A stretch of DNA of 64,000 bases from a virus. The notes under the pieces were generated by a model. It searched no databases and was not told where the DNA came from. It saw only the letters and a list, made by a program, of their open reading frames with translations. The translations under genes were made by a program, and so were the position numbers. Positions 3,375-62,414 of the stretch are shown here, one piece after another. The first letter of the stretch is position 1; each line of letters opens with the position of its first letter. The stretch lies in IMG/VR virus record IMGVR_UViG_3300045996_004119, positions 62,001-126,000 of that record; one strand, given 5' to 3'.

Positions 3375-5909
3375 GTGCAGGACCTCGCAAGCGACACCGA
3401 GCCTCGCGACGCCGGCCACGTTGCCGCCCTCGGCTCGCCGAGCCAGCCCCGGGATGCCGATGGCAAGTGGACGGACGGGCGCGGGGGAGGGCGCTCGGCG
3501 CCCGCTGGTGACGTCGGCGGGCCTGGGCGAGGCGGCAACAGCAGCGATTCCGGCAGCAGCGGCTACAGGCCCGGCGGGAGTTGGCGAGGGCGCAGCCGCG
3601 GCGGGAGCAAGGGCGGCAAGGCCCCAGGTGCAGCTGACGCCTCTGGCGCATCCGACGGCCGCTCGGCGGCGCAGAAGAAGCGCCACGCCGACCAGCGCGA
3701 CACGGCCGACGTCGCGGAGAAGCGGGCGCGGTCTCACGAGGCGAAGGCGCAGAAGGCTCGCGACGAGGCCGCGCAGAAGCGACAGGAGCTCGAGGACACG
3801 AGGGACAGCGTCGAGCCGAAGAGGCGGCGCGCCGAGGAGCTGGAGGAGGCGTACCAGCGCAAGCTCGAGGCGCACGAGGAGGCAGAGCGGCGCTTCGACG
3901 AGGAGAACTTCGAGGACGTCCCCGACGCGCGCCGCAACAAACTCGCCGAGGAGGCAGACCAGGCGCGTGGCGAGATGCGCGCGGCGAAGCGCGAGGTGGC
4001 CGAAGCGGGCAAATCGCACAGGGCGGCCGAGCGCAGGGTGTCCCGCCTAGAAGACGAGTACGACGCGGCGCGCGAGGAGGCTGTCTCTCGTCGCCTCGAC
4101 GCCGACACGGCCCGCAATCGAGCAAACATCGAGCGCGAGCACACGGACCTGCTGGAGCGGCCGCACGCCGAATACTCGGCGGAGGTGCGGAAACGCGCCG
4201 CAGACGCGAAGCGCGACGTCGCCAAGGCGACCGAAAAAGCCGACGTTGCAGAGCGCGATCTCGACACGATGCGGAAGAGCGAACAGGCGGCGATCGACGA
4301 GTCTATCCGCGGGCAGCACGCGAATCAGGCAGAGCGCGCTCGAGCGTACGACCAGGCCAAAGGAGCGGAGGATGCTCGCAAGTCCGCCGAGGAGCGGGCG
4401 ATGGCCGCGGACAACGATCGCAAGGTGGCGAGCATCCGCGCCAAGTACTGGGCCGAGGCCGCTAGGGAAGCCCGCAGGCTCAAGCCAGGCCCCATCGACG
4501 GAGATGGCGACGGCCGCGTGAACGAGGCCGAGCGATCCGACCAACTATCCGACGGCCCGAGCGCCGACGAGGACACCATGACCACCATCGAGACGCTCTC
4601 TGTCGGAGACGACGTCCCGCTCGAGCTCGTCAACGGGCAGGCGCCGCGAGAGCTCCGTCTCTTCCGGAGGGGCGAGAACCCGAGCACGAAGGGGAGCTTC
4701 CTTTTCGACGACACGGCCGCGCAGAAGGTCATGTCGACCTACCAGCGGATGGGCCGCAAGTGGGTCTCCATCGACTACGACCACGGGTCGCTGCAGCGGA
4801 ACCCGGTCGACCCGAGCAAGAGCGCCCGCAGCGCGGGTAGAGCTCCGCTGGAGCTTCGCGACGGCGAGCTGTGGGCGACAAACATCCAGTGGACCCCCGC
4901 GGCGAAGGCCGGAATCGAAGCCGGGGAGTGGCCGTCGGTGTCGCCCGCGTTCGCGCACGGCGAAGACCGGCGTCCCACGTGGGTGATGAACTTCGGGCTC
5001 ACAGGCAACCCGGCACTCCACAGCCCAGCGGAGCTCGTCGCGGCCAACGTGCTGCGCGCGCTCTTCGACCCGACCGAACCAGATGACCAGGGGGTGACTC
5101 CGCTCGCCTCCACCACGACGGGCGACAGGCCCGCGCAAACCGAGGCTCCGGCCACGGAGGAACAGAGCATGAAGAAGCGAACTGCTGCCGAGGTGGCCGA
5201 GTTCTTCGGGGTCACCGAGGACGAGGCGAAGGTGTGGATGGCCGCCGCGCACGGCGAGCCGAAGAAGATGCTGAGCGCGGCTGTCGCGCTGAGCGTGGGC
5301 CTCTCGGCGGAGACCGAGGAGGACGTCCTCGTGACGCGCCTCTCCGCACTCTCGTCGGCGGAGCGGCGCGTGCTCTCCGCGCTCGACGTGAAGAGCATCG
5401 ATGATGCGCTCGGCGCGATCACCGGCCTCAAGAAGGCGGCCAAGGACGCCGAGAGGCTCGCAGCGTCGCTCGCCGACATCCAGGGGAAGCAGATCCGCTC
5501 CGAGGTGGAGACGATGCTCTCCGCAGCCAAGGACGCGAAGAAGCTCACCCCCGCCGAGGTGGCCGACGAGAGCGAGGCGAGCCTGCGCGCGACGGCGCTG
5601 TCCATGGGCGACAAGGGCCCCGGCTGGCTCAAGGCGCACATCGCGCAGCGGCCGGTGATCGAGGTGCTGAACACCACCTTCAAGCAGCCGGAGACGAAGC
5701 CGAATCCGGAGGGCGATCAGAAGCCCAAGGTCGACGTCGGCGGCAAGACGTACGCCCAGCTCTCCAACATGGAGAAGCACGAGCTCTCGCAGCGTGACCC
5801 GCAGCAGTTCGCGGCGCTGCGCGAGGCGCACCTGAACTCGCTCCCGGCGAACACCTACCCGGTCCCCGACCAGCAGCGCGGGGGCATGTTCCGCGACCTC
5901 CCCGGCTGA
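3375..5909 (+). CDS. Mu gpI-like prohead protease/scaffold with a long N-terminal coiled-coil extension
   Basis: 844 residues from the GTG at 3375; an in-frame GTG at 3120 is possible but overlaps the previous gene. Order: a Gly-rich head with a SQPRDADGKWTDG motif common in phage head proteins; a very charged coiled coil (about residues 95-370); an EF-hand-like calcium loop (DGDGDGRVNE, ~374); a Mu-like protease domain from ~402, with DYDHG (His470) and VSPAF (Ser523) matching the conserved His and Ser blocks of the family; a linker; and a helical scaffold region from ~599. In Mu, gpI is cleaved after guiding capsid assembly. Two in-frame internal ATGs with upstream purine-rich sites (4578, 5169) could give a standard-size protease and a separate scaffold. 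Confidence 0.85.
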   Translation: MQDLASDTEPRDAGHVAALGSPSQPRDADGKWTDGRGGGRSAPAGDVGGPGRGGNSSDSGSSGYRPGGSWRGRSRGGSKGGKAPGAADASGASDGRSAAQKKRHADQRDTADVAEKRARSHEAKAQKARDEAAQKRQELEDTRDSVEPKRRRAEELEEAYQRKLEAHEEAERRFDEENFEDVPDARRNKLAEEADQARGEMRAAKREVAEAGKSHRAAERRVSRLEDEYDAAREEAVSRRLDADTARNRANIEREHTDLLERPHAEYSAEVRKRAADAKRDVAKATEKADVAERDLDTMRKSEQAAIDESIRGQHANQAERARAYDQAKGAEDARKSAEERAMAADNDRKVASIRAKYWAEAAREARRLKPGPIDGDGDGRVNEAERSDQLSDGPSADEDTMTTIETLSVGDDVPLELVNGQAPRELRLFRRGENPSTKGSFLFDDTAAQKVMSTYQRMGRKWVSIDYDHGSLQRNPVDPSKSARSAGRAPLELRDGELWATNIQWTPAAKAGIEAGEWPSVSPAFAHGEDRRPTWVMNFGLTGNPALHSPAELVAANVLRALFDPTEPDDQGVTPLASTTTGDRPAQTEAPATEEQSMKKRTAAEVAEFFGVTEDEAKVWMAAAHGEPKKMLSAAVALSVGLSAETEEDVLVTRLSALSSAERRVLSALDVKSIDDALGAITGLKKAAKDAERLAASLADIQGKQIRSEVETMLSAAKDAKKLTPAEVADESEASLRATALSMGDKGPGWLKAHIAQRPVIEVLNTTFKQPETKPNPEGDQKPKVDVGGKTYAQLSNMEKHELSQRDPQQFAALREAHLNSLPANTYPVPDQQRGGMFRDLPG
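5169..5909 (+). CDS. Nested in-frame scaffold protein (Mu gpZ-like arrangement), candidate
   Basis: The in-frame ATG at 5169 is preceded by GGAGG at 5156-5160 with an 8-nt spacer, the best ribosome-binding site inside the long protease gene. It would make 246 residues that start with MKKRTAAEVAEFFGV and are helical to the end. In Mu the scaffold Z is made from an internal start in gene I, so this layout is expected from family knowledge. That it is used here is inferred. Confidence 0.6.
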   Translation: MKKRTAAEVAEFFGVTEDEAKVWMAAAHGEPKKMLSAAVALSVGLSAETEEDVLVTRLSALSSAERRVLSALDVKSIDDALGAITGLKKAAKDAERLAASLADIQGKQIRSEVETMLSAAKDAKKLTPAEVADESEASLRATALSMGDKGPGWLKAHIAQRPVIEVLNTTFKQPETKPNPEGDQKPKVDVGGKTYAQLSNMEKHELSQRDPQQFAALREAHLNSLPANTYPVPDQQRGGMFRDLPG

Positions 5910-6011
5910 CCTGACGGCGCACCCGCCTCGGCAAACCGACCACCACAACCAGAATCAATGGAGCGACGCGCTGCCCGCTGAGGCGGAGATCTGCGCGCCG
6001 AGAAGCCACTC

Positions 6012-6911
6012 ATGGGCGTCACCAAGCGTTCAGACATCATCAACACGTACATCCTGGCAGAGGCGATCCAGGCCGAGTTCGCGGGCGCCGTGGCGCTCTA
6101 CGGATCGCCCGCCGTCGTGCAGAACAACAGCCTCCCGGCGAACACCATCAACGGGGGGAAGCTGAAGGGGGGCGAGACCATCCAGGTCCCCTACTTCAAC
6201 AACCTCGGCGAGCTCGACGAGATCGCTACCGACGGCGACTCGCTCACGCCGGTCGCGCTCACGATGAGCGACGAGACGGCCACGATTCGCCACTTCGGCA
6301 AGGCCGTCGAGCTCACCACCTGGTCGCAGATCAAGGGCCTCTACTCCGACCCGTACAAGGAGTGCGCGCGGCAGCTCGTGCTGGCGGCTCAGCGCAGCTG
6401 GGATGCTGCGCTCATCCAGGTGGCCGGCACGTCGCTGCCGTCGGACAACGTCCACGACGTCTGGAACGCAGTGACGCCGGTCCTGCTGAACTGGGACGTC
6501 ATGGTCGACGCGAAGCTGAAATTCGGCGACGAGCAGTCGAGCATCGTGATGCTCTCCGTGCATTCGAAGGTCTACGGCGACCTGATGAAGCTCAAGGACT
6601 CGACCGGGCGCCCGTTGCTCGTCGACGCGAACGACGGCAGCCTGCCGAAGTTCATGGGCATCCCCGTGAAGGTCTCCGACCGGAACGCGGTGGTCCCGGC
6701 GTCCGGCAGCACCCCGGCGAAGTACAAGTCGCGCATCTACAAGGCCGGCGCGCTCGCGCTCTGGCTCAACGGCCAGCCGTCGGTGAAGGAGGACGAGGAC
6801 ATCCTCAAGGACACCGACCTCGTCGCGATTCACACGTACTTCGTCGGCCACCGGTACAAGCGCACCCCCGGCGCGACCCGCCCGGGCGTCGTCGAGATCG
6901 TCACCAACTGA
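6012..6911 (+). CDS. Major capsid protein (HK97-fold type)
   Basis: 299 residues. It has the usual features of phage coat proteins: a conserved TIRHFGKAVELTTWS beta segment, a central SIVMLSVHSKVYGDLM stretch, and a C-terminal pair of beta strands around KSRIYKAGALALWLNGQ and VAIHTYFVGHRYKRTPG. It directly follows the protease/scaffold gene, after a 102-nt gap. The sequence does not look like Mu gpT. It is closer in style to coat proteins of other tailed phages, which suggests a capsid module swap. It forms the icosahedral shell. Confidence 0.85.
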   Translation: MGVTKRSDIINTYILAEAIQAEFAGAVALYGSPAVVQNNSLPANTINGGKLKGGETIQVPYFNNLGELDEIATDGDSLTPVALTMSDETATIRHFGKAVELTTWSQIKGLYSDPYKECARQLVLAAQRSWDAALIQVAGTSLPSDNVHDVWNAVTPVLLNWDVMVDAKLKFGDEQSSIVMLSVHSKVYGDLMKLKDSTGRPLLVDANDGSLPKFMGIPVKVSDRNAVVPASGSTPAKYKSRIYKAGALALWLNGQPSVKEDEDILKDTDLVAIHTYFVGHRYKRTPGATRPGVVEIVTN

Positions 6912-6941
6912 CCATGGGCGTCGGGTTCTTCAGGGTCCAGC

Positions 6942-7241
6942 ATGCCCGGCGTCGGCACGGTCAGGAGATACCTGCTTCTGAAGGAGCAGGCGGCGACGCA
7001 GCGCGGGGACGAGGAGATAGCGCTGGCCTTTCGGGGGAAGCGCATGTCGGAGCCGGGAACGAACCTCCCAGCGGGGTTCCCCGGGCTGACGGAGCTGGCG
7101 GCGGTGACGCCGCCGTACACCGCGGTGGAGGACCTGAAGGGGCCAACCATCGAACGATCGGCGGACGTGGAGGAGCTGGTAGCAGCGGGCCTCCCCCGCA
7201 AGCTGGCGCGGGAGGTCATCGCCGCGCTCACGGAGCTGTGA
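6942..7241 (+). CDS. Small hypothetical head protein
   Basis: 99 residues. The N-terminal half is basic and helical; the C-terminal half ends in an amphipathic LVAAGLPRKLAREVIAAL helix. It lies between the capsid and decoration-type genes, so a head or head-completion role is likely. The start is the first ATG with an upstream AGGG. No family recognised. Confidence 0.6.
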   Translation: MPGVGTVRRYLLLKEQAATQRGDEEIALAFRGKRMSEPGTNLPAGFPGLTELAAVTPPYTAVEDLKGPTIERSADVEELVAAGLPRKLAREVIAALTEL

Positions 7242-45608: not shown

Positions 45609-45814
45609 GCCTGAGCGCGACGGAGCTCTGCATCGTCGTCGCGACCCTCGTCGGCTTGGCCAAGCCGGCGCTCGCGCTGATTGGCCTGCTCGGGGGACGG
45701 ATGGAGCGGCCACCCGTTGAGCCACTCTTCATGGAGCGCCTGTCGCGCTCGGATCCGCCCGCGCTCCCCGAGCACGTCGGCGGATACCGGACGAGCCCAT
45801 CGGAGCCGCGCTGA
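45605..45814 (+). CDS. Small membrane-type protein
   Basis: 69 residues from a GTG overlapping the previous stop. One hydrophobic segment (ELCIVVATLVGLAKPALALI) and a Pro/Arg tail. The stop overlaps the HD-domain ATG by 1 nt. Confidence 0.55.
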   Translation: MSLSATELCIVVATLVGLAKPALALIGLLGGRMERPPVEPLFMERLSRSDPPALPEHVGGYRTSPSEPR

Positions 45815-46371
45815 TGTTCTGGAACCACCACCCCGTCCTCCGCTTCGGCCCGCTCGACATCGACACGGGCGCCATCCCCGAGCTCCGGGCCCTCGCTGGC
45901 GTCCCGCAGCCGGCGAGGCATCACCCGGAGGTGGACTCCTGGACGCACGTGCTCATGGCCGTCGACCAGGCGCGCATCCTGACGGACGAGCCGGCGGTGC
46001 GGTTCGCCGTCCTGCTCCACGACCTGGGGAAGGGGACGACGCCGGCCGAGGTCCTGCCGCAGCACATCGACCACGAGGAGCGCGGCGTTCCGCTGGTGCA
46101 CGCCGTCTGCGATCGCCTCGACGTGCCGCCGGCTTGGCGCGAGCTCGCCGCCTTGGTCTGCGAGCACCACACGCGCTGCCACCGGGCGACGGAGATGAGC
46201 CCGGCCGGGAAGCGGAGGCTACTGCGTCGGGTCGGCGCCGCCGAGGAGCCCGAACGGCTGGAGCTGTTCCTGCTGGCCTGCGAGGCTGACGCCCGCGGTC
46301 GGCTCGGCCTGGAGCGCCGGGAGTACCCGCAGCGGTGCCTCGTGCTGGAGGCGGCGCGCCGTAGCCCATGA
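45814..46371 (+). CDS. Stand-alone HD-domain phosphohydrolase related to the HD domain of CCA-adding enzymes
   Basis: 185 residues. HHPEVDSWTHVLMAVDQARI (His45), the metal pair in VRFAVLLHDLGKGTTP (His69-Asp70), LPQHIDHEERGVPLVHAVCD and ELAALVCEHHTRCHRATEM follow in order. These are the same blocks, in the same order, as the C-terminal HD domain of bacterial tRNA nucleotidyltransferases such as E. coli Cca, which hydrolyses 2',3'-cyclic phosphates. The nucleotidyltransferase part is absent. A role in tRNA or RNA end processing, or against tRNA-cutting host defences, is an inference. Confidence 0.85.
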   Translation: MFWNHHPVLRFGPLDIDTGAIPELRALAGVPQPARHHPEVDSWTHVLMAVDQARILTDEPAVRFAVLLHDLGKGTTPAEVLPQHIDHEERGVPLVHAVCDRLDVPPAWRELAALVCEHHTRCHRATEMSPAGKRRLLRRVGAAEEPERLELFLLACEADARGRLGLERREYPQRCLVLEAARRSP

Positions 46372-48541: not shown

Positions 48542-51500
48542 TCACCACCCCATTCCGATCTGCCGCGGCTCGCTCCCCCGCCGCGCCGTGGGCGCCGGCC
48601 TCTCCGGCGGCGCCTCCTCGCGCTCATCTCTGGTGAGCATCTCGTAGAGCAGCCGCCCCAGGTCGCGCCCGGCCAGCTCATCCGCAGCCCCGACGCCGGC
48701 AGCCTGGAGCGCCGCGGTCGCGTCGAGCCCGTCCGCGGCCTCGCTCACCCCGACCTTGTGCAACAAGAGCCGGTGCAGCACCTCCTGCAGCGTCCCCTTG
48801 TAGACCGGGGTGTAGACGCGCGCCTGCTTCCGCTGCCCGATGCGCCGCACGCGCCCGATCGCCTGCCGGCGGATCAGCGGGTTGCAGGCCGGGTTTTCGT
48901 ACCAGACCTCGGTCGCGAAGTGGACGAGGTTGTTCAACCCGGTCTGCACCGCGACCGGGTTGACCACGAGAATCCGCCGGCCCTTGCCGACGATCTCCTT
49001 ATCGATCCACGCTTCCCGCTTCTTCGGCGCCACCTTGTCGGCCCACAGGATCGGCGCCTTCTCGCCCGTCGCCTCCTCGAGCAGACGCGCGAGCCGAGGC
49101 ATGAGCTCGAGGTGCCAGACGAAGACCATGACGTTGCGGCCCTCGGCGAGCTCCCGGCGCACCACGTCGACGAGCCACGCCTCCTTCGGGAGCGGATCGC
49201 CCGCGGGGAGCCCCGGCTGCACGGCGACGGTGCCACCGCCGACCGCCTCGGGATAGCGGATCTCGTAGGAGCCGCCATCGGTGTTGCCGACGTCCGCCGT
49301 CGCGCGGTCGAGGTACGACGGGAGCTCGGCCAGCTGCCCGAACAGCCGCCCGGCGAGCTGGGAGAAGCGGTCGCGCTTGATCTGCTGGATCAGCGTCCGC
49401 TGGAGCGCGTGGTACCGCCTGCCGAGCTCGGGGCCCGGGTCAATCTGCTCGACGATCTCCACGGCCGGCGGGAGGTCGATCCCGAGGTCGTCGACGTGGA
49501 GGGTCACCGCGATCGGGAGCAGGTGCCGCAGGAGCAGCGCGGGCAGCACGCCGGGCGCCTGGCCGCTCGTTCGCTCGACACGCTCCACGCGGTCGGTCAT
49601 CGCGCCAAACGACACGGGCTTCCTCGAGTCCTTGTCGCGCATCTCGACCACCTGCTTGAGGTACCCGTACCGCCGGACGAACTCGCCCTGCTCCTCGCGG
49701 CCGAACTCCGCCCGGAAGGCGCTGGAGAGGCTCCAGAGCAAGATGAACAACGAGGACGCGTAGCCGTTCATGACGCTTCCCGTGAGCGCGATCGTCGGCC
49801 GGCGGAGCTGGAACAGCTGCTGCGCGGCGAGGCTCTGCGCGCTGTCCTGACAGCCCGCTTCATGCACCTCGTCGACCACGATCAGGTCGAACAGCCGCGG
49901 ATGCCGGCGCGCGATGTAGTGGGCGAGCGGGACGCGCCTCGGCGACGGGATCGCGTGGAAGAGCGGTTCGTCGCAGGGGGCAGACTCGACCCAGCGCCCG
50001 TGAGCGGTGAGCTTCGCGAGCGCCGTGTGCGCTGCCTCGGCGGAGCCCGCGGGGAGCTTCTCGATGCACACCCGCCCGTCCTGCAGGCGGTACGCGCGCC
50101 AGTCGTACTCGCCGTCGCGCCCGGCGATCATGGCAGCGACGTGCCGCTCCCAACGCTCCCAGGAGGCCCCAGGCGAGGCGTACTGGTCGTCATCCACCGC
50201 ATGCCCGCGGAGCTCCTCCGCGAGCGCCCGCTGCGCCTCCCCACGCGGCGGCAGCAGCAGCATCAGCTCGCGGGCCACCTTCCGGAACTGCGCGCCCCAG
50301 CCCCAGGCCTTTGGGTCCTCGAGCGACGCGAGGTAGATGCCGCGCGCGACCTTGACGGTGGCCGCCTCGTCGTTCGCAGCGAGCAGCAGGTGAGCCGGGA
50401 TGTCGACGAACTCGCGCTTCGGCTCGCTCTTCTGGCCCATGATCCACGTCCCGACCCGACGCGCGAGCGGCGCGATCTTCGGCTGCACGGCCGGCCACGA
50501 ATCCGCGCCGGCCTCGCGACGCTTCGCCAGTACGCCGAGGAACCGCTGCGCGACGTGGCCGCGGATGAGCTGCTGCACCCCGGCCCGCTCGGGGAACACG
50601 GGCGCGAGCAGCGCGGCGAGGCGCACGGCCATCCGGGCCGCCCGGCCGCTGGCGACGAACTCGGTGTGCTCGCACCGGAGGCGCTTGCGGGCGTTCTCGT
50701 CGGCCGGCGTCTCGATCGCGGTGCCGCACCGAGGGCACCGGCCGGAGATGCCCGCCCAGGCGTGGCCGAGCTTGGCCGCCTCGCGCGACAGGATGCCGAT
50801 GACCATGCCGTCGGTCCGGTCCGCCGCGAAGGACTCGACGGCGGCGACGTCATCGAGCACCACCGTGCGCGCCCAGGGGACGACGGCGGCGGCCTGGTCG
50901 GTCCAGTTCTTGAGCAGGTGCGGCGGGCACATCACGAGCACCCGGCGCGCGCCGCGGGTCGCTGCCGTCGCGAGCGCGCACGACGTTTTCCCCGCCCCGA
51001 TTTCCCCCAGCAGAATCGCCGCCTTGTCCGGCCCGTCGAGCAGCCGGCAGACCGCCCGCACGGCGTGCCCCTGGGCTGTGTAGAGCTTCCGCGGCAGTTC
51101 CGGCAGATGGATGGCCTCCGCGTCGCGCGCCGGGTCGTACATGGCCGGGCAGCGCTCGCGCAGCGTCGCGAGCAGGGAGCGGCCGTAGGTGGCCAGCAGG
51201 TCGCCCGCGGTCATGCCTGCGACGCCGCGCGCGCCCGTGACGGCCACGTCCGAACCGAGCCGGTGGTAGCGCCCGGCGCGCAGGTCGAGCGCCGTGATCT
51301 CGAGCTCCGGGTGCTGCACCTGGATCTCGGCCGTAACGTCACCGTCTTTGTTCGTCCGGTGATCCACCGTGGCGAACCGCTTCCTGAACGTTCCCTTCAC
51401 CAGGAGGGGCGGCAGGCCGGCGGCCGCGTCGTCCGGGTCGAGTCGCGCGCCCGAGAGCGCGCCGGAGGCGATCCCCGCGGCGATGTGCGCCGGCTTCGGG

Positions 51501-52465
51501 GCGACCGCGAGCGGGAAGGTCGGGGCGAGCAGCTGGTCGAACGGCTCGACGGGAAGCACGCCCGGGATCGGCGCCTGGCGTCCACCGCGATCGGTGGCGT
51601 GCCAGGGCCGCAGCTGACCGAGCAGCCCGCGCACGTCGAGCGGCGCGATCTCCCACCGGCCGAACCCGGCGCCGTCGAGCGGGGCCACCTCGAGCACAGC
51701 CGGACCCGCCGCGGGGAGCTCGGGGATGGCGTCCGCGTCGGCGCCCCACGCCCGCACGCGCGCCTCGACGGCAGGATCGGGGGCGAGCAGCGCCGGGCGG
51801 CGCCGGGCCACGAGGACGATCTGCTTGAAGGCCTCGAAGTGCGGGGCCGGGACGCGCCAGCAGGTGAGCTCCTCGAAGTGCGTCGCCAGCGTCGCCGCCG
51901 ATGCGCCGAGCGCGTAGAACGGGACGAAGAAGAGCAGAGCGCCGCCGCTCGCGACGGCCGGCGCGAACCGGCGAAGCCAGCGCTCCTCGAGGCGCCCGTG
52001 CTCCGGGTCGAGGTCGTACGGCGGGTTGAGCCACATCACGGTGGCCCCGGCGCCGCGCCCGTACTGCTCGCCCCATTGCAGACGGAACGCGTCGCCCTTC
52101 GCGACCGAGACACGGTGCTCGCGCGAGGCCGCGCGGATCTTTCGGTGGCACGCCTCAGCGCGCGTCGCCTCGAGCTCGCACGCATAGATCTTGTAGCCTT
52201 CGGTGAAGCCCCAGCCGGCGCCGAGCCACCGCTCGACAAGACCCATGATGGCGTCGCCCTCGCCCGCGCACGGGTCGACGATGGCGTGCTCGCGACCCTC
52301 CTCGATGCGAAGCCGCACGAGCGCAGCGATCGACGGGAGCAACTCCTCCGGGGCCGCGTAGAAACCCCCGACGGAAACGGACTCTGGCCTAGCGATGACG
52401 CACCTTCCTCTCCGACTTCTCGAACAACACCACCTGCTCCGCGAGGATCTCCTCGAGCCGCTCAT
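48542..52465 (-). CDS. Adenine-methyltransferase / SNF2-type helicase fusion (DarB-like anti-restriction candidate)
   Basis: About 1,285-1,307 residues. N-terminal N6-adenine methyltransferase: DPCAGEG (64-70, SAM loop) and MWLNPPY (144-150). Then a superfamily-2 helicase: GEIGAGKT (~490), a zinc-finger insert (GRCPRCG ... RCEH), DEVHEAG (~860), ALTGSVMNG, and the C-terminal QAIGRVRRIGQRKQARVYTP, typical of SNF2. Methylase plus helicase without nuclease recalls phage P1 DarB, which protects DNA from type I restriction. The start is unclear: family members begin near IARPESVSVGG, where only ATC/GTC codons exist; the GTG used here overlaps the upstream gene. Confidence 0.85.
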   Translation of the reverse strand: MSGSRRSSRSRWCCSRSRRGRCVIARPESVSVGGFYAAPEELLPSIAALVRLRIEEGREHAIVDPCAGEGDAIMGLVERWLGAGWGFTEGYKIYACELEATRAEACHRKIRAASREHRVSVAKGDAFRLQWGEQYGRGAGATVMWLNPPYDLDPEHGRLEERWLRRFAPAVASGGALLFFVPFYALGASAATLATHFEELTCWRVPAPHFEAFKQIVLVARRRPALLAPDPAVEARVRAWGADADAIPELPAAGPAVLEVAPLDGAGFGRWEIAPLDVRGLLGQLRPWHATDRGGRQAPIPGVLPVEPFDQLLAPTFPLAVAPKPAHIAAGIASGALSGARLDPDDAAAGLPPLLVKGTFRKRFATVDHRTNKDGDVTAEIQVQHPELEITALDLRAGRYHRLGSDVAVTGARGVAGMTAGDLLATYGRSLLATLRERCPAMYDPARDAEAIHLPELPRKLYTAQGHAVRAVCRLLDGPDKAAILLGEIGAGKTSCALATAATRGARRVLVMCPPHLLKNWTDQAAAVVPWARTVVLDDVAAVESFAADRTDGMVIGILSREAAKLGHAWAGISGRCPRCGTAIETPADENARKRLRCEHTEFVASGRAARMAVRLAALLAPVFPERAGVQQLIRGHVAQRFLGVLAKRREAGADSWPAVQPKIAPLARRVGTWIMGQKSEPKREFVDIPAHLLLAANDEAATVKVARGIYLASLEDPKAWGWGAQFRKVARELMLLLPPRGEAQRALAEELRGHAVDDDQYASPGASWERWERHVAAMIAGRDGEYDWRAYRLQDGRVCIEKLPAGSAEAAHTALAKLTAHGRWVESAPCDEPLFHAIPSPRRVPLAHYIARRHPRLFDLIVVDEVHEAGCQDSAQSLAAQQLFQLRRPTIALTGSVMNGYASSLFILLWSLSSAFRAEFGREEQGEFVRRYGYLKQVVEMRDKDSRKPVSFGAMTDRVERVERTSGQAPGVLPALLLRHLLPIAVTLHVDDLGIDLPPAVEIVEQIDPGPELGRRYHALQRTLIQQIKRDRFSQLAGRLFGQLAELPSYLDRATADVGNTDGGSYEIRYPEAVGGGTVAVQPGLPAGDPLPKEAWLVDVVRRELAEGRNVMVFVWHLELMPRLARLLEEATGEKAPILWADKVAPKKREAWIDKEIVGKGRRILVVNPVAVQTGLNNLVHFATEVWYENPACNPLIRRQAIGRVRRIGQRKQARVYTPVYKGTLQEVLHRLLLHKVGVSEAADGLDATAALQAAGVGAADELAGRDLGRLLYEMLTRDEREEAPPERPAPTARRGSEPRQIGMGW

Positions 52466-53204
52466 GGCTCACCCAGCAGGCCACGCCCGGGGCGAGCCCC
52501 ACGGCGGCCGTGTCGACCTCGCGGAACCCGAGAGCGCCGGCCTCGCCGAACGTCCCCCGGTCCGGGTTGCCGTACCGGGTCGAGATGCCCCACGAGGCGA
52601 TCCCCGCCGCGAGCGCCGCGCAGTAGAGCTGTGCCCAGAACCGCGGGTCGGGCGGAATCGGCAGCGGCGAGCGCCGGGCGAGCGCCGCGCAGAACAGCGC
52701 CCCCATCGGGGCGAGCCAGCACCACAGGCGCGCGTCCTCGCTCTTGCAGCCGAGCCGCCGCACGTGGGCCTCGACAGCGCGCCGATCGAACCGCGCAGCC
52801 TCCGCCTCCAGCCGCGCACGCGGTGGCATCAGGACGAACTTCACGCTGGTCGCGTCGACGAGCCCCGGGTCGAAAACGAAGAGCTCGTGCAGGTACGCCG
52901 TGAGGATCACGCCCTCCGCGAAACGTTGCTGGCGGTGGACGTAGCCGACCGACTTGAGCAGCTCCACGCGGTCGCCCTTCGACACGCAATCCTCGCCGCG
53001 CATGGTGGCCTTCCGGCCAGCCTGGAGGTTCGCGAGCACCGGCCGCGCCTCGGCCTCGCTGCACGCGAGCTGGAGGAACACGGGGCGGATGGCCTCCGCG
53101 GCGCCGCCGTCCCAGAGGGCGCTCGCGGTCGCGTAGGCGAGCACCGTCGCCGAGAACGAGCGGCCTTTGCCGCCCTCGCCGGTCTCGATCGTCAGCGTGC
53201 GCAT
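52389..53204 (-). CDS. Hypothetical protein coupled to the methylase-helicase
   Basis: 271 residues from the ATG at 53204 (a longer frame extends upstream but lacks support). Begins MRTLTIETGEGGKGRSFSAT, rather like a P-loop-less start; helical core with FVFDPGLVDATSVKFVLMPP and a SRYGNPDRGTFGE-like Gly region. No family recognised. Overlaps the helicase start, so probably the same operon and function. Confidence 0.65.
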   Translation of the reverse strand: MRTLTIETGEGGKGRSFSATVLAYATASALWDGGAAEAIRPVFLQLACSEAEARPVLANLQAGRKATMRGEDCVSKGDRVELLKSVGYVHRQQRFAEGVILTAYLHELFVFDPGLVDATSVKFVLMPPRARLEAEAARFDRRAVEAHVRRLGCKSEDARLWCWLAPMGALFCAALARRSPLPIPPDPRFWAQLYCAALAAGIASWGISTRYGNPDRGTFGEAGALGFREVDTAAVGLAPGVACWVSHERLEEILAEQVVLFEKSERKVRHR

Positions 53205-53263
53205 TGCGCGTTCCCCGGCGCGCCGTCGCCAAACAGCCCTGGCTGGGCCATGCCGCTCGGCAC

Positions 53264-53284
53264 TTGTTGCGTTCCGCGCAACAA
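53264..53284. other. Hairpin in the 85-nt gap 53205-53289
   Basis: Perfect 8-bp arms TTGTTGCG / CGCAACAA around TTCCG. No T-run, so not a clear terminator. Confidence 0.45.
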
Positions 53285-53289
53285 CTCCC

Positions 53290-54024
53290 TCACGCGAAAC
53301 CCCTCCAGTCGTGGGCGTCGTGGACCGATTGAACGAAGCGGCGGCGCACGATCTGCGCCCGCGTGCGCGCCTGTCCAAGGTCAACGCGCGCCGCCTGCCA
53401 CCCAGGCGCGCCGGCGCCGAGCGCCCCGTAGGCCTCCTCGGCAGCGCGCACCTGCTCTGCGGCGCGAAGGCACTCGGCGTCTACGTCCGCGGCCGCCTGA
53501 GCCGCAGCCTCTCGGCGCTGGCCCGGCGTGATGACCGCCTCGCCACGGAGAGCACGCGAGAGGAGCACCTCGGCATGCGCCACCGCGTCGGCAGCCTCGC
53601 GCGCGGCTTCTTCGCGGGTGGCGAACGTCCGCGTCGCGGACCAGGAGGCCCCGGCGCGGCCCGGAAGGTCGAGGCGCATCTCGGCCAGCCACGCCGCGGG
53701 CTTCCAGCCGAGACACGGGACCACGCTCGCCTCGATTCCGCACAGGAGATGCGGCGCCGCTGGGTCCGGCGCCGTCGCGCGATAGCCGACCCCGGACCGG
53801 TCGTCGCTGGACCAGAGCTCGCGGGACACGCGGACCGGCGCGGCGTACCAGCCGAACGTGCGGGCCATGAGCGGGTCCGGCCTGTCGCCGGAGCGATGGC
53901 GAGGAGCCGCTACGGCGATCCCAGCTCGCCATGGCAGGAGCCACTGAGAGAGCCCGCTCCACCAGATCGCCAGCGTGACCGGCGTCGGTCCGCTGGAGCG
54001 GAACTTGAGCTCGAGTTGGCTCAT
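53290..54024 (-). CDS. Hypothetical protein in the methylase-helicase operon
   Basis: 244 residues; the ATG overlaps the stop of the small basic gene upstream (ATGA). The first half is beta-rich with many Trp (LAIWWSGLSQWLLPWRAGI), the second half is a long Ala/Glu/Arg helix (coiled coil, ~150-215). No family recognised. Confidence 0.65.
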   Translation of the reverse strand: MSQLELKFRSSGPTPVTLAIWWSGLSQWLLPWRAGIAVAAPRHRSGDRPDPLMARTFGWYAAPVRVSRELWSSDDRSGVGYRATAPDPAAPHLLCGIEASVVPCLGWKPAAWLAEMRLDLPGRAGASWSATRTFATREEAAREAADAVAHAEVLLSRALRGEAVITPGQRREAAAQAAADVDAECLRAAEQVRAAEEAYGALGAGAPGWQAARVDLGQARTRAQIVRRRFVQSVHDAHDWRGFA

Positions 54025-54191
54025 GCCTCACCCCGTCGCGCAGCCTCGACGAGGCGGCGCTCCTGGTCCCGCTGACGCCGGGCGCGCCGATCGCGCATCG
54101 GGCCCGCGCTGACACGGCGCTGCGCCGCGACGGCGGTCCCGCTGCGCTTGGGTCGCGACTCGCAGCGACTGGCGATCATGATGACTCGCAT
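54021..54191 (-). CDS. Small Arg-rich protein, first gene of the leftward operon
   Basis: 56 residues; AAAGGAG 8 nt before the ATG. About a quarter Arg (SAGPMRDRRARRQRDQERRL). It may bind nucleic acid. Directly behind the palindromic control region, in the position of a Cro-like or leader gene. Confidence 0.6.
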   Translation of the reverse strand: MRVIMIASRCESRPKRSGTAVAAQRRVSAGPMRDRRARRQRDQERRLVEAARRGEA

Positions 54192-54201
54192 GCAACACGC
54201 T

Positions 54202-54280
54202 CCTTTCACGGTGAAAGGTAGTGACGCGTGGGGCAGCGTCAAGAATAATTCTTGACGTAATGTCACCCCGATCCCATGCT
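54202..54280. promoter_or_regulatory. Divergent control region with two perfect palindromes
   Basis: CCTTTCAC-G-GTGAAAGG (54202-54218) and GTCAAGAAT-A-ATTCTTGAC (54238-54256). The second palindrome carries TTGAC on both strands: reverse TTGACG (54242-54237) with TACCTT 16 nt on, and forward TTGACG (54252-54257) with CATGCT 17 nt on. So one symmetric operator would hold both -35 boxes. The first palindrome covers the leftward -10 and ribosome site. Confidence 0.6.
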
Positions 54281-61484: not shown

Positions 61485-61488
<4 letters not shown>

Positions 61489-62414
61489 CGGCTCGCGCTC
61501 TCCCACGGCGACACCGCGTCGTTGGCGGCGGGCCGCATCACGACTGTCTTCGCCCGCCGCCTCGGTGCGGCGACAACGCCGGACGCCGGCGCTGGTTCTG
61601 CGGTGGGCGCCCGCCGGGCAGCAGGGCGCCTCGGGCGCATCGGCCCGGCCGGCAGGTCGCCTCCCCACAGCACCGCGTCGTCCTGCGCCAGCACCCGGCG
61701 GAGCGCCCGTTCGAGCTTCGGCATGGCGCTCTCCAGTACCTGCTGGGCGCGCTGCTTGGTGAAGCCGAACGACTTGCCGATCGCTTCGTAGCACTCCGGC
61801 TCCTCTGCGAGGAGGTGGCGCTCGACGATGTCGCGCTCCTGTGGGTTGAGCCAGGTGAGCGCGCGCTCGACGAGTTCCTTGCTGCGCGCCTTGGATTCGT
61901 CGTCCGCCAGCAACGCCTCCGGGCTCAGCGCCTCGCTCACCGAGAGGTCGCCCCGGGTGGAGCCGTCTCTCCCGACCGGCACATCAAGGCTCGGCGTGCG
62001 CAGCAGACGAATCGCCTCCGCGCGGTCGTCGTCCAGCGTCTCCCCTGCTCGCGCCGCCTGATACATGGCGTCATGCAGATGCTGCGGGAGGCGGATCGTG
62101 GGCCCTTCCACCTGGAGCGCATTGATCGCCTCGTTCCTCGCCCAGTGGAGTGCGTACGTGGTGAGCCGCGCGCCCTCCGAAGGGTCGAACCGCAGGATGC
62201 CGCGGAAGAAGCCTAGCCGGGCAGCCTGCATGATGTCCTCCGTGCGGACGCCCTTGTTGAGGTAGCGGCGCACGAACTTGTAGATCATCGGCTCGTTCGC
62301 CGTGACCAGGACGCCGCCGGCCGCCTTGTCGCCAGCCTGGCACCGGCGAGCAAGCTCGATCTCGAGCTCTGGCGTGATGTCTCGGTAGCTGAGCCGTCGG
62401 CCGGTTGGGAGCAT
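61485..62414 (-). CDS. Phage-encoded RNA polymerase sigma factor (sigma-70 family)
   Basis: 309 residues. Region 2: [40 protein letters not shown] and [18 protein letters not shown] (core binding and -10 reading). Region 4: [19 protein letters not shown] and [20 protein letters not shown]. Size and layout resemble RpoH/group-3 factors. A basic Pro-rich tail (~250-309) is extra. It could switch host polymerase to phage genes. The gap upstream (62415-62467) has a weak TTGCGC / CACAAT promoter on the reverse strand. Confidence 0.88.

Follow-up and report, generated by a model that had tools for sequence, protein, structure and literature searches.

The DNA analyzed here, henceforth referred to as the window, is a 64,000-nucleotide stretch covering bases 62001–126000 of the 126,110-base IMG/VR virus record IMGVR_UViG_3300045996_004119. 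The virus is a contractile-tailed phage, with genes for a minor head protein, prohead protease, major head protein, tail sheath and tape measure at 1.5–15 kb. Running from 54191 to 48542 on the minus strand is a cassette of four open reading frames (ORFs) in the order P4 (56 aa), P3 (244 aa), P2 (271 aa) and P1 (1284 or 1307 aa). P1 fuses a predicted N6-adenine-type methylase of family DUF6094 to an SNF2 motor bearing a zinc finger, a DUF6094-SNF2 dyad in one chain, and P2 is the sole neighbour conserved across the phage branch of the P1 family. The features of the cassette are collected in Table 1.

Table 1 Features of the cassette and its upstream region, in window coordinates.
Feature	Position	Strand	Basis or remark
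SNF2 C-terminal RecA lobe of P1, motif VI QAIGRVRRIGQ	48707..49198	-	Pfam, profile, alignment
P1 insert, residues 576–806	49979..50671	-	168–261 aa in P2-linked branch
CPxCG...RC zinc-finger-like segment of P1	50672..50737	-	Three cysteines conserved in 19/19 aligned rows
Walker A GEIGAGKT of SNF2 motor	50984..51007	-	Probable intein insertion site in relatives L034, L035
P1 central region, residues 236–435	51092..51691	-	Beta-rich from ~331; no fold match covers region
P1 methylase fold, gamma-class N6-adenine (predicted), residues ~10–235, DPCAGEG and NPPY intact	51692..52369	-	AlphaFold2 model, fold matches
P1, predicted DUF6094 methylase fused to SNF2 motor, 1284 aa	48542..52396	-	Motifs, Pfam, profile matches, relatives
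P2, conserved partner, 271 aa	52389..53204	-	Beta-rich N-terminal and helical C-terminal domain; probable divergent UP member
P3, lineage-specific ORF, 244 aa	53290..54024	-	Relatives not found
P4, basic ORF, 56 aa	54021..54191	-	Overlaps P3 start by ATGA; relatives not found
Perfect 8-1-8 palindrome	54202..54218	.	Includes AAAGG ribosome-binding stretch of P4
Perfect 10-1-10 palindrome	54237..54257	.	Possible operator

Domains of the methylase-motor fusion

The initial annotation described a DPCAGEG/NPPY methylase joined to an SNF2 helicase with a zinc finger and no nuclease, and this description was borne out by the ORF, by Pfam and by profile comparison. Both methylase motifs are contained in a 1307-aa ORF (48542–52465, minus strand), in which DUF6094 (PF19587) scored 45.8 bits over residues 46–249 (cut-off 22.8); SF2/SNF2 helicase families matched weakly. 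A profile built from 11 relatives and compared with PDB retrieved SNF2/Rad54 chains (best 1.4e-13), supporting an SNF2/Rad54-type C-lobe, as well as M.BseCI (3.3e-4). The AlphaFold2 model of residues 1–440 (ma7687201a4d7; pLDDT 83.6, pTM 0.59) aligned with M.BseCI over 198 residues (Z 16.4, rmsd 3.4), and further gamma-class methylase folds were matched in M.TaqI (Z 15.3), M.EcoKI (14.9) and LlaBIII (13.8). No nuclease family was matched by Pfam in P1–P4, in a scan that took in only part of the neighbouring genes. The zinc-finger-like segment sits between Walker A and the DE box, and the insert is skipped by the profile match in nearly all relatives outside the P2-linked branch. The DPC and NPPY motifs and the motor motifs are conserved over 19 aligned rows, with L034 lacking its N-terminus and L017, L033 and L035 varying in motif VI.

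P1 may begin at the ATG at 52465, giving 1307 aa and overlapping P2 by 77 nt; alignment with relatives instead points to an ATC codon at 52396. There is no ATG, GTG or TTG where the relatives start, and the candidate ATC start has GGAGAGGAAGG ahead of it (window 52380–52480). In two relatives (L034, 6723–11441; L035, 8001–12812), insertions of ~370 aa occur precisely at Walker A; a cysteine follows GSGK, LAGFFDSDG/LAGLLDSDG-like stretches are present, and the L034 insertion ends with HN/T. These are probably inteins in the motor. Five more relatives (L028, L048, L056, L058 and L062) carry insertions around the equivalent profile position. A second ORF of the same phage record, beyond the window (G000:C1:39107–41620, plus strand), clusters with the P1 helicase family. 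A 1381-aa open frame antisense to P1 (48758–52903, plus strand), with antisense frames also present in relatives, probably just reflects the high GC content.

P2 and the UP family

Conservation of P2 was observed in scans from both directions. The IMG/VR scan with P1 alignments returned 25 related loci, of which 18 encode long fused proteins 37–47% identical to P1, and a P2 homologue lies directly upstream on the same strand in all 18. The scan with P2 returned 14 loci, every one with P1 downstream and four of them on contigs new relative to the P1 scan. P2 is accordingly found upstream of or fused to P1 on 22/22 related IMG/VR contigs, and also on 4/4 long-form contigs from bacterial genomes; these counts include two seemingly near-identical pairs (L016/L019 and L123/L124). 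L021 represents the same phage as L002 and was excluded from the neighbour-ORF and P2-profile comparisons, its P2 being observed separately. In the window the P2 and P1 genes overlap, and over the 18 loci measured their spacing varies between an overlap of 89 nt and a gap of 3142 nt. On a 435-kb phage contig (L128), one stop-free ORF of 1539 aa takes in P2, methylase and motor. Among the 80 GTDB genome loci kept from at least 442 relatives, P2 was present in the 4/4 long-form loci and in 0/76 of the others. The P2 profile likewise had no match in the seven remoter phage-contig loci or the two plasmid loci examined. Antisense frames aside, no neighbour besides P2 recurs in more than three loci in an ORF comparison of the first-fetched loci and the window record. 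The mirror-tree correlation between P2 and P1 was 0.89 over 19 rows, a value that shared inheritance alone may explain.

The annotation had also described the ORFs listed under 53204, 53290 and 54021 (P2, P3 and P4) as having no known family. This agrees with the absence of matches to all three in Pfam, NCBIfam and PADLOC; yet only P2 is conserved with the methylase-motor. In the structure model of P2 (pLDDT 84.8, pTM 0.84), a beta-rich N-terminal domain is followed by a helical C-terminal domain. A ParA-like P-loop protein, suggested by the GxGGKGRS start, was rejected: the family consensus, KGRSF, lacks the P-loop pattern, and the model begins beta-rich. In L020, a ThyX gene with an HNH intein (5607–7208) lies immediately ahead of P2.

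A probable wider counterpart of P2 emerged from 85 other methylase-motor loci, comprising two plasmids, seven remote viral contigs and 76 genome contigs. Clustering with phmmer joined upstream ORFs from 64/85 of these loci into one unannotated family of ~200 aa, named UP here. The corresponding hidden Markov model (HMM) placed UP upstream of the methylase, at a distance of no more than 1.7 kb, in 68 loci, as a separate ORF between methylase and motor in seven, joined to the N-terminal end of the motor ORF in four (L087, L093, L099 and L114) and farther upstream in three; one further match was weak (L024), and L028 and L088 had none. UP thus lies near the methylase-motor in 82/85 loci of integrative and conjugative elements (ICEs), plasmids, chromosomes and phage contigs, a count to be read with the fact that the profiles derive from 63 of the same 85 loci, the independent figure being the 64/85 from phmmer. 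The UP proteins of pKLC102 and pOCEPR01, the two tested, matched no Pfam family. Several Chloroflexi and other genomes among L045–L116 (accession prefixes including WBUL, PHBX, PHBZ, DDSH, JABLXC and LBMP) carry the system, fused or split, at least twice and on separate contigs.

Comparison of P2 with Chloroflexi-type UP by hhalign gave 50.9% and a score of 39.2, which none of 100 column shuffles reached (maximum 17.8); the reversed control scored 15.8 and P1 segments at most 21.3. ICE-type and Chloroflexi-type UP matched each other at 98.1%, and the UP HMM matched the P2 of L017 (E 4e-4, Z set to 1e5). P2 is therefore probably a divergent phage-branch member of the UP family. The changing gene order, together with fusions of two different kinds, is hard to reconcile with three parts that work separately, and an association of P2 with the methylase-motor as a subunit is well supported by these gene arrangements.

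The methylase-SNF2 dyad itself is already known: such dyads have been described in phages, plasmids and conjugative elements, with DarB of phage P1 as the one member for which a protective effect is described there (PMC5512222). What is new here is the partner, P2/UP. The portions of the literature available on DUF6094, on the pKLC102 methylase/helicase and on adenine methylases with SNF2 helicases gave no account of a third subunit. Kept in several arrangements, such a subunit is a concrete missing part that makes the choice of DNA by dyads, and restriction evasion, testable. With the UP profile, many genes currently listed as hypothetical can be annotated, and UP/P2 connects ICE backbones with very large phages.

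Proposed function and rival readings

We consider it roughly an even chance (about 0.5) that the cassette encodes a mobile-element translocase that modifies DNA, has no nuclease and is built from three subunits, namely P2, the DUF6094 methylase and an SNF2 motor on double-stranded DNA, and that it marks DNA for escape from restriction. P2 would dock onto the methylase-motor and aid DNA choice or loading; the ATP-driven motor would travel along the phage duplex; the methylase would mark adenines as the motor moves; and DNA so marked would be spared by host restriction. We infer each of the physical complex, the adenine methylation and the translocation. The scheme follows the logic proposed for DarB (PMC5512222) and the role of the co-ejected Dar proteins (PMC12810830), whereas the cassette has a different protein family and a different partner, with no evidence for packaging.

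The surroundings of related cassettes are consistent with a role in modification. DNA methylases were the commonest Pfam families among neighbouring proteins (10 and 90 scanned of 281 picked). On 9/18 contigs the cassette has another methylase of PF01555 or PF02086 no more than 8 kb away, against 3.3 expected by random placement (P 0.0012, four distances having been tried).

Several results weigh against this interpretation. The same proximity test at 5 kb was not significant (5/18, P 0.085), and methylases of these two families are absent from the record to which the window belongs. P1 showed no recognisable target-recognition domain, although the fold matches span residues 9–234 and hardly probe the remainder, and its motif X reads AP, compared with the usual TP in most relatives. 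For P2, Foldseek found nothing at E<=0.001 in PDB or BFVD, and the best VIA-align Z of 4.9 is under the level that the tool calls meaningful, so its function was not derived from fold. Compared with the ICE-type UP profile alone, P2 was not significant (10/100 shuffles reached the score), and its homology to UP consequently depends on the intermediate Chloroflexi-type profile. Protection of the element's own DNA from restriction would be the most likely purpose, judged only from the DarB precedent and the distribution on mobile elements. No relation of the cassette to the anti-restriction genes vcrx089-090 was established.

A broader proposal, possible though doubtful, is that UP/P2 has been overlooked as the third subunit, and the defining one, of a class of nuclease-free, motor-driven DNA modification enzymes common to ICEs, conjugative plasmids, Chloroflexi and very large phages. 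UP/P2 would have an HsdS-like role in recognition or loading, within a "modification-only type I-like" machine that lets phages pass as host DNA. Type I and type ISP restriction-modification systems, such as LlaBIII, share with P1 the gamma methylase fold and a DNA motor, but bear a nuclease.

An unlikely alternative is that the cassette serves as an accessory to replication, recombination or transcription in large phages and ICEs, the motor remodelling DNA and the mark being regulatory. Roles in recombination or with RNA polymerase have been proposed for jumbo-phage SNF2 helicases (PMC7824862). The closest split methylase/helicase pairs, moreover, sit in ICE and plasmid backbones; these pairs of a DUF6094 methylase and a DEAD/SNF2 helicase are the nearest relatives of P1 outside phages. 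Those of pKLC102 and pOCEPR01 share with the cassette a PF19587 methylase, a motor of the same family and an upstream ~200-aa gene matching the UP profiles, but differ in that the genes are separate, the motor lacks the long insert after the finger and the partner is far diverged from P2. Best matches to an ICE replication helicase family amid unrelated neighbours, which the initial annotation regarded as contrary to its proposal, come close to what was observed, but the key neighbour, P2/UP, is conserved. Against an accessory function stand the methylase motifs, intact alongside the motor, and the clustering of other DNA methylases nearby.

It appears quite unlikely that P1 is a DarB-like virion protein, packaged, injected with the DNA and protecting it in cis. 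According to PMC5512222, a single DarB chain carries a gamma-class adenine methylase and, C-terminal to it, a SWI2/SNF2 ATPase, with a domain named LPD36 ahead of the methylase; the Dar proteins of phage P1 are described as co-ejected (PMC12810830). The likeness to DarB suggested initially held for the kind of domain pair and for the mobile-element setting, but not for membership of the family. BLASTP against DarB gave no significant match (best E 0.092, one pair) and hhalign 2.0%, each over the Walker A stretch only. P1 matches phrog_62, as do plasmid helicases, and DarB is phrog_1685, which reached P1 with E 0.57, again only over Walker A. A DarB query over the 18 carrier contigs matched other helicase-like ORFs in seven and the cassette in none. 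Since the methylase begins at the N-terminus, with motif X at residues 12–16, LPD36 has no room in P1, as judged by length, the LPD36 profile itself not having been searched. DarB is also longer (2255 compared with 1284 aa) and is partnered by Ulx/DarA, P1 by P2. P1 was accordingly rejected as a DarB homologue. That it works like DarB is reasonable, given a domain pair of the same kind and no nuclease found. Weak matches of the P2 N-terminal domain to tail-tube/Hcp-like barrels would suit a virion protein, but their best Z is the 4.9 already given. A terminase was matched on 11/18 contigs, at least 29 kb from the cassette on 10 of these 11, which is mild evidence against a packaging-module gene. 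DarA was matched on 0/18 contigs, in a search without a positive control. A downstream Ulx-like gene was rejected, as no downstream gene recurs beyond small groups of loci.

An equally poor prospect is a phage-borne defence or superinfection-exclusion system of the BREX, DISARM or MADS kind, in which host or self DNA would be methylated and unmethylated competitor DNA blocked. A methylase and an SNF2 motor with no nuclease resemble such systems, and a defence role had been suggested initially. It became less likely because the PADLOC matches of the cassette are to a generic SF2 helicase and the marker families are missing. MZB (PF09369), which we take to mark DrmB of DISARM, was found on 0/18 contigs (8/14 control genomes), and PglZ (PF08665), the BREX marker, on 0/18 (2/14 control genomes). 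PADLOC mad2, a model for the MADS defence methylase, matched the plasmid/ICE and chromosomal methylases of pKLC102 (L004), Oceanithermus (L003) and Chloroflexi (L050), with E values of 1.5e-15, 5e-8 and 2.5e-13 among these relatives, which suggests that methylases of mobile elements and of defence systems are connected. This comparison concerns the methylase only, and P1 itself falls short of the mad2 model, with no match at E<=1. Nor is any effector gene conserved beside the P2-P1 pair.

Upstream genes, control region and other window features

P3 and P4 were considered as core parts of the system and rejected. Relatives of neither were present in related loci, and P3 had none in viral contigs or phage records; the lone weak P3 match was in L024 (E 0.006). 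Among P2, P3 and P4, only P3 gave a PHROGs match (E 0.028). P3 and P4 are lineage-specific and are not conserved with the methylase-motor. Translational coupling of the three front genes, as described initially, is consistent with the ATGA overlap of P4 with P3 and with the P2-P1 overlap, but P3 and P2 are 85 nt apart.

The two palindromes reported upstream of the cassette are both exact. As rare events they were rejected, their count across the 64-kb window being at chance level: four odd palindromes with arms of at least 8 were observed against 4.3 expected, and one with arms of at least 10 against 0.5. The only unusual feature is that the two share one short upstream gap. The 10-1-10 palindrome could be an operator.

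Two further genes were recorded in the window. An RNA polymerase sigma factor gene (61485–62414, minus strand; phrog_351, E 4.6e-35) indicates that the phage may redirect host transcription. A tRNA nucleotidyltransferase-like protein (phrog_2244, E 7.5e-22) is encoded at 45814–46371 on the plus strand.

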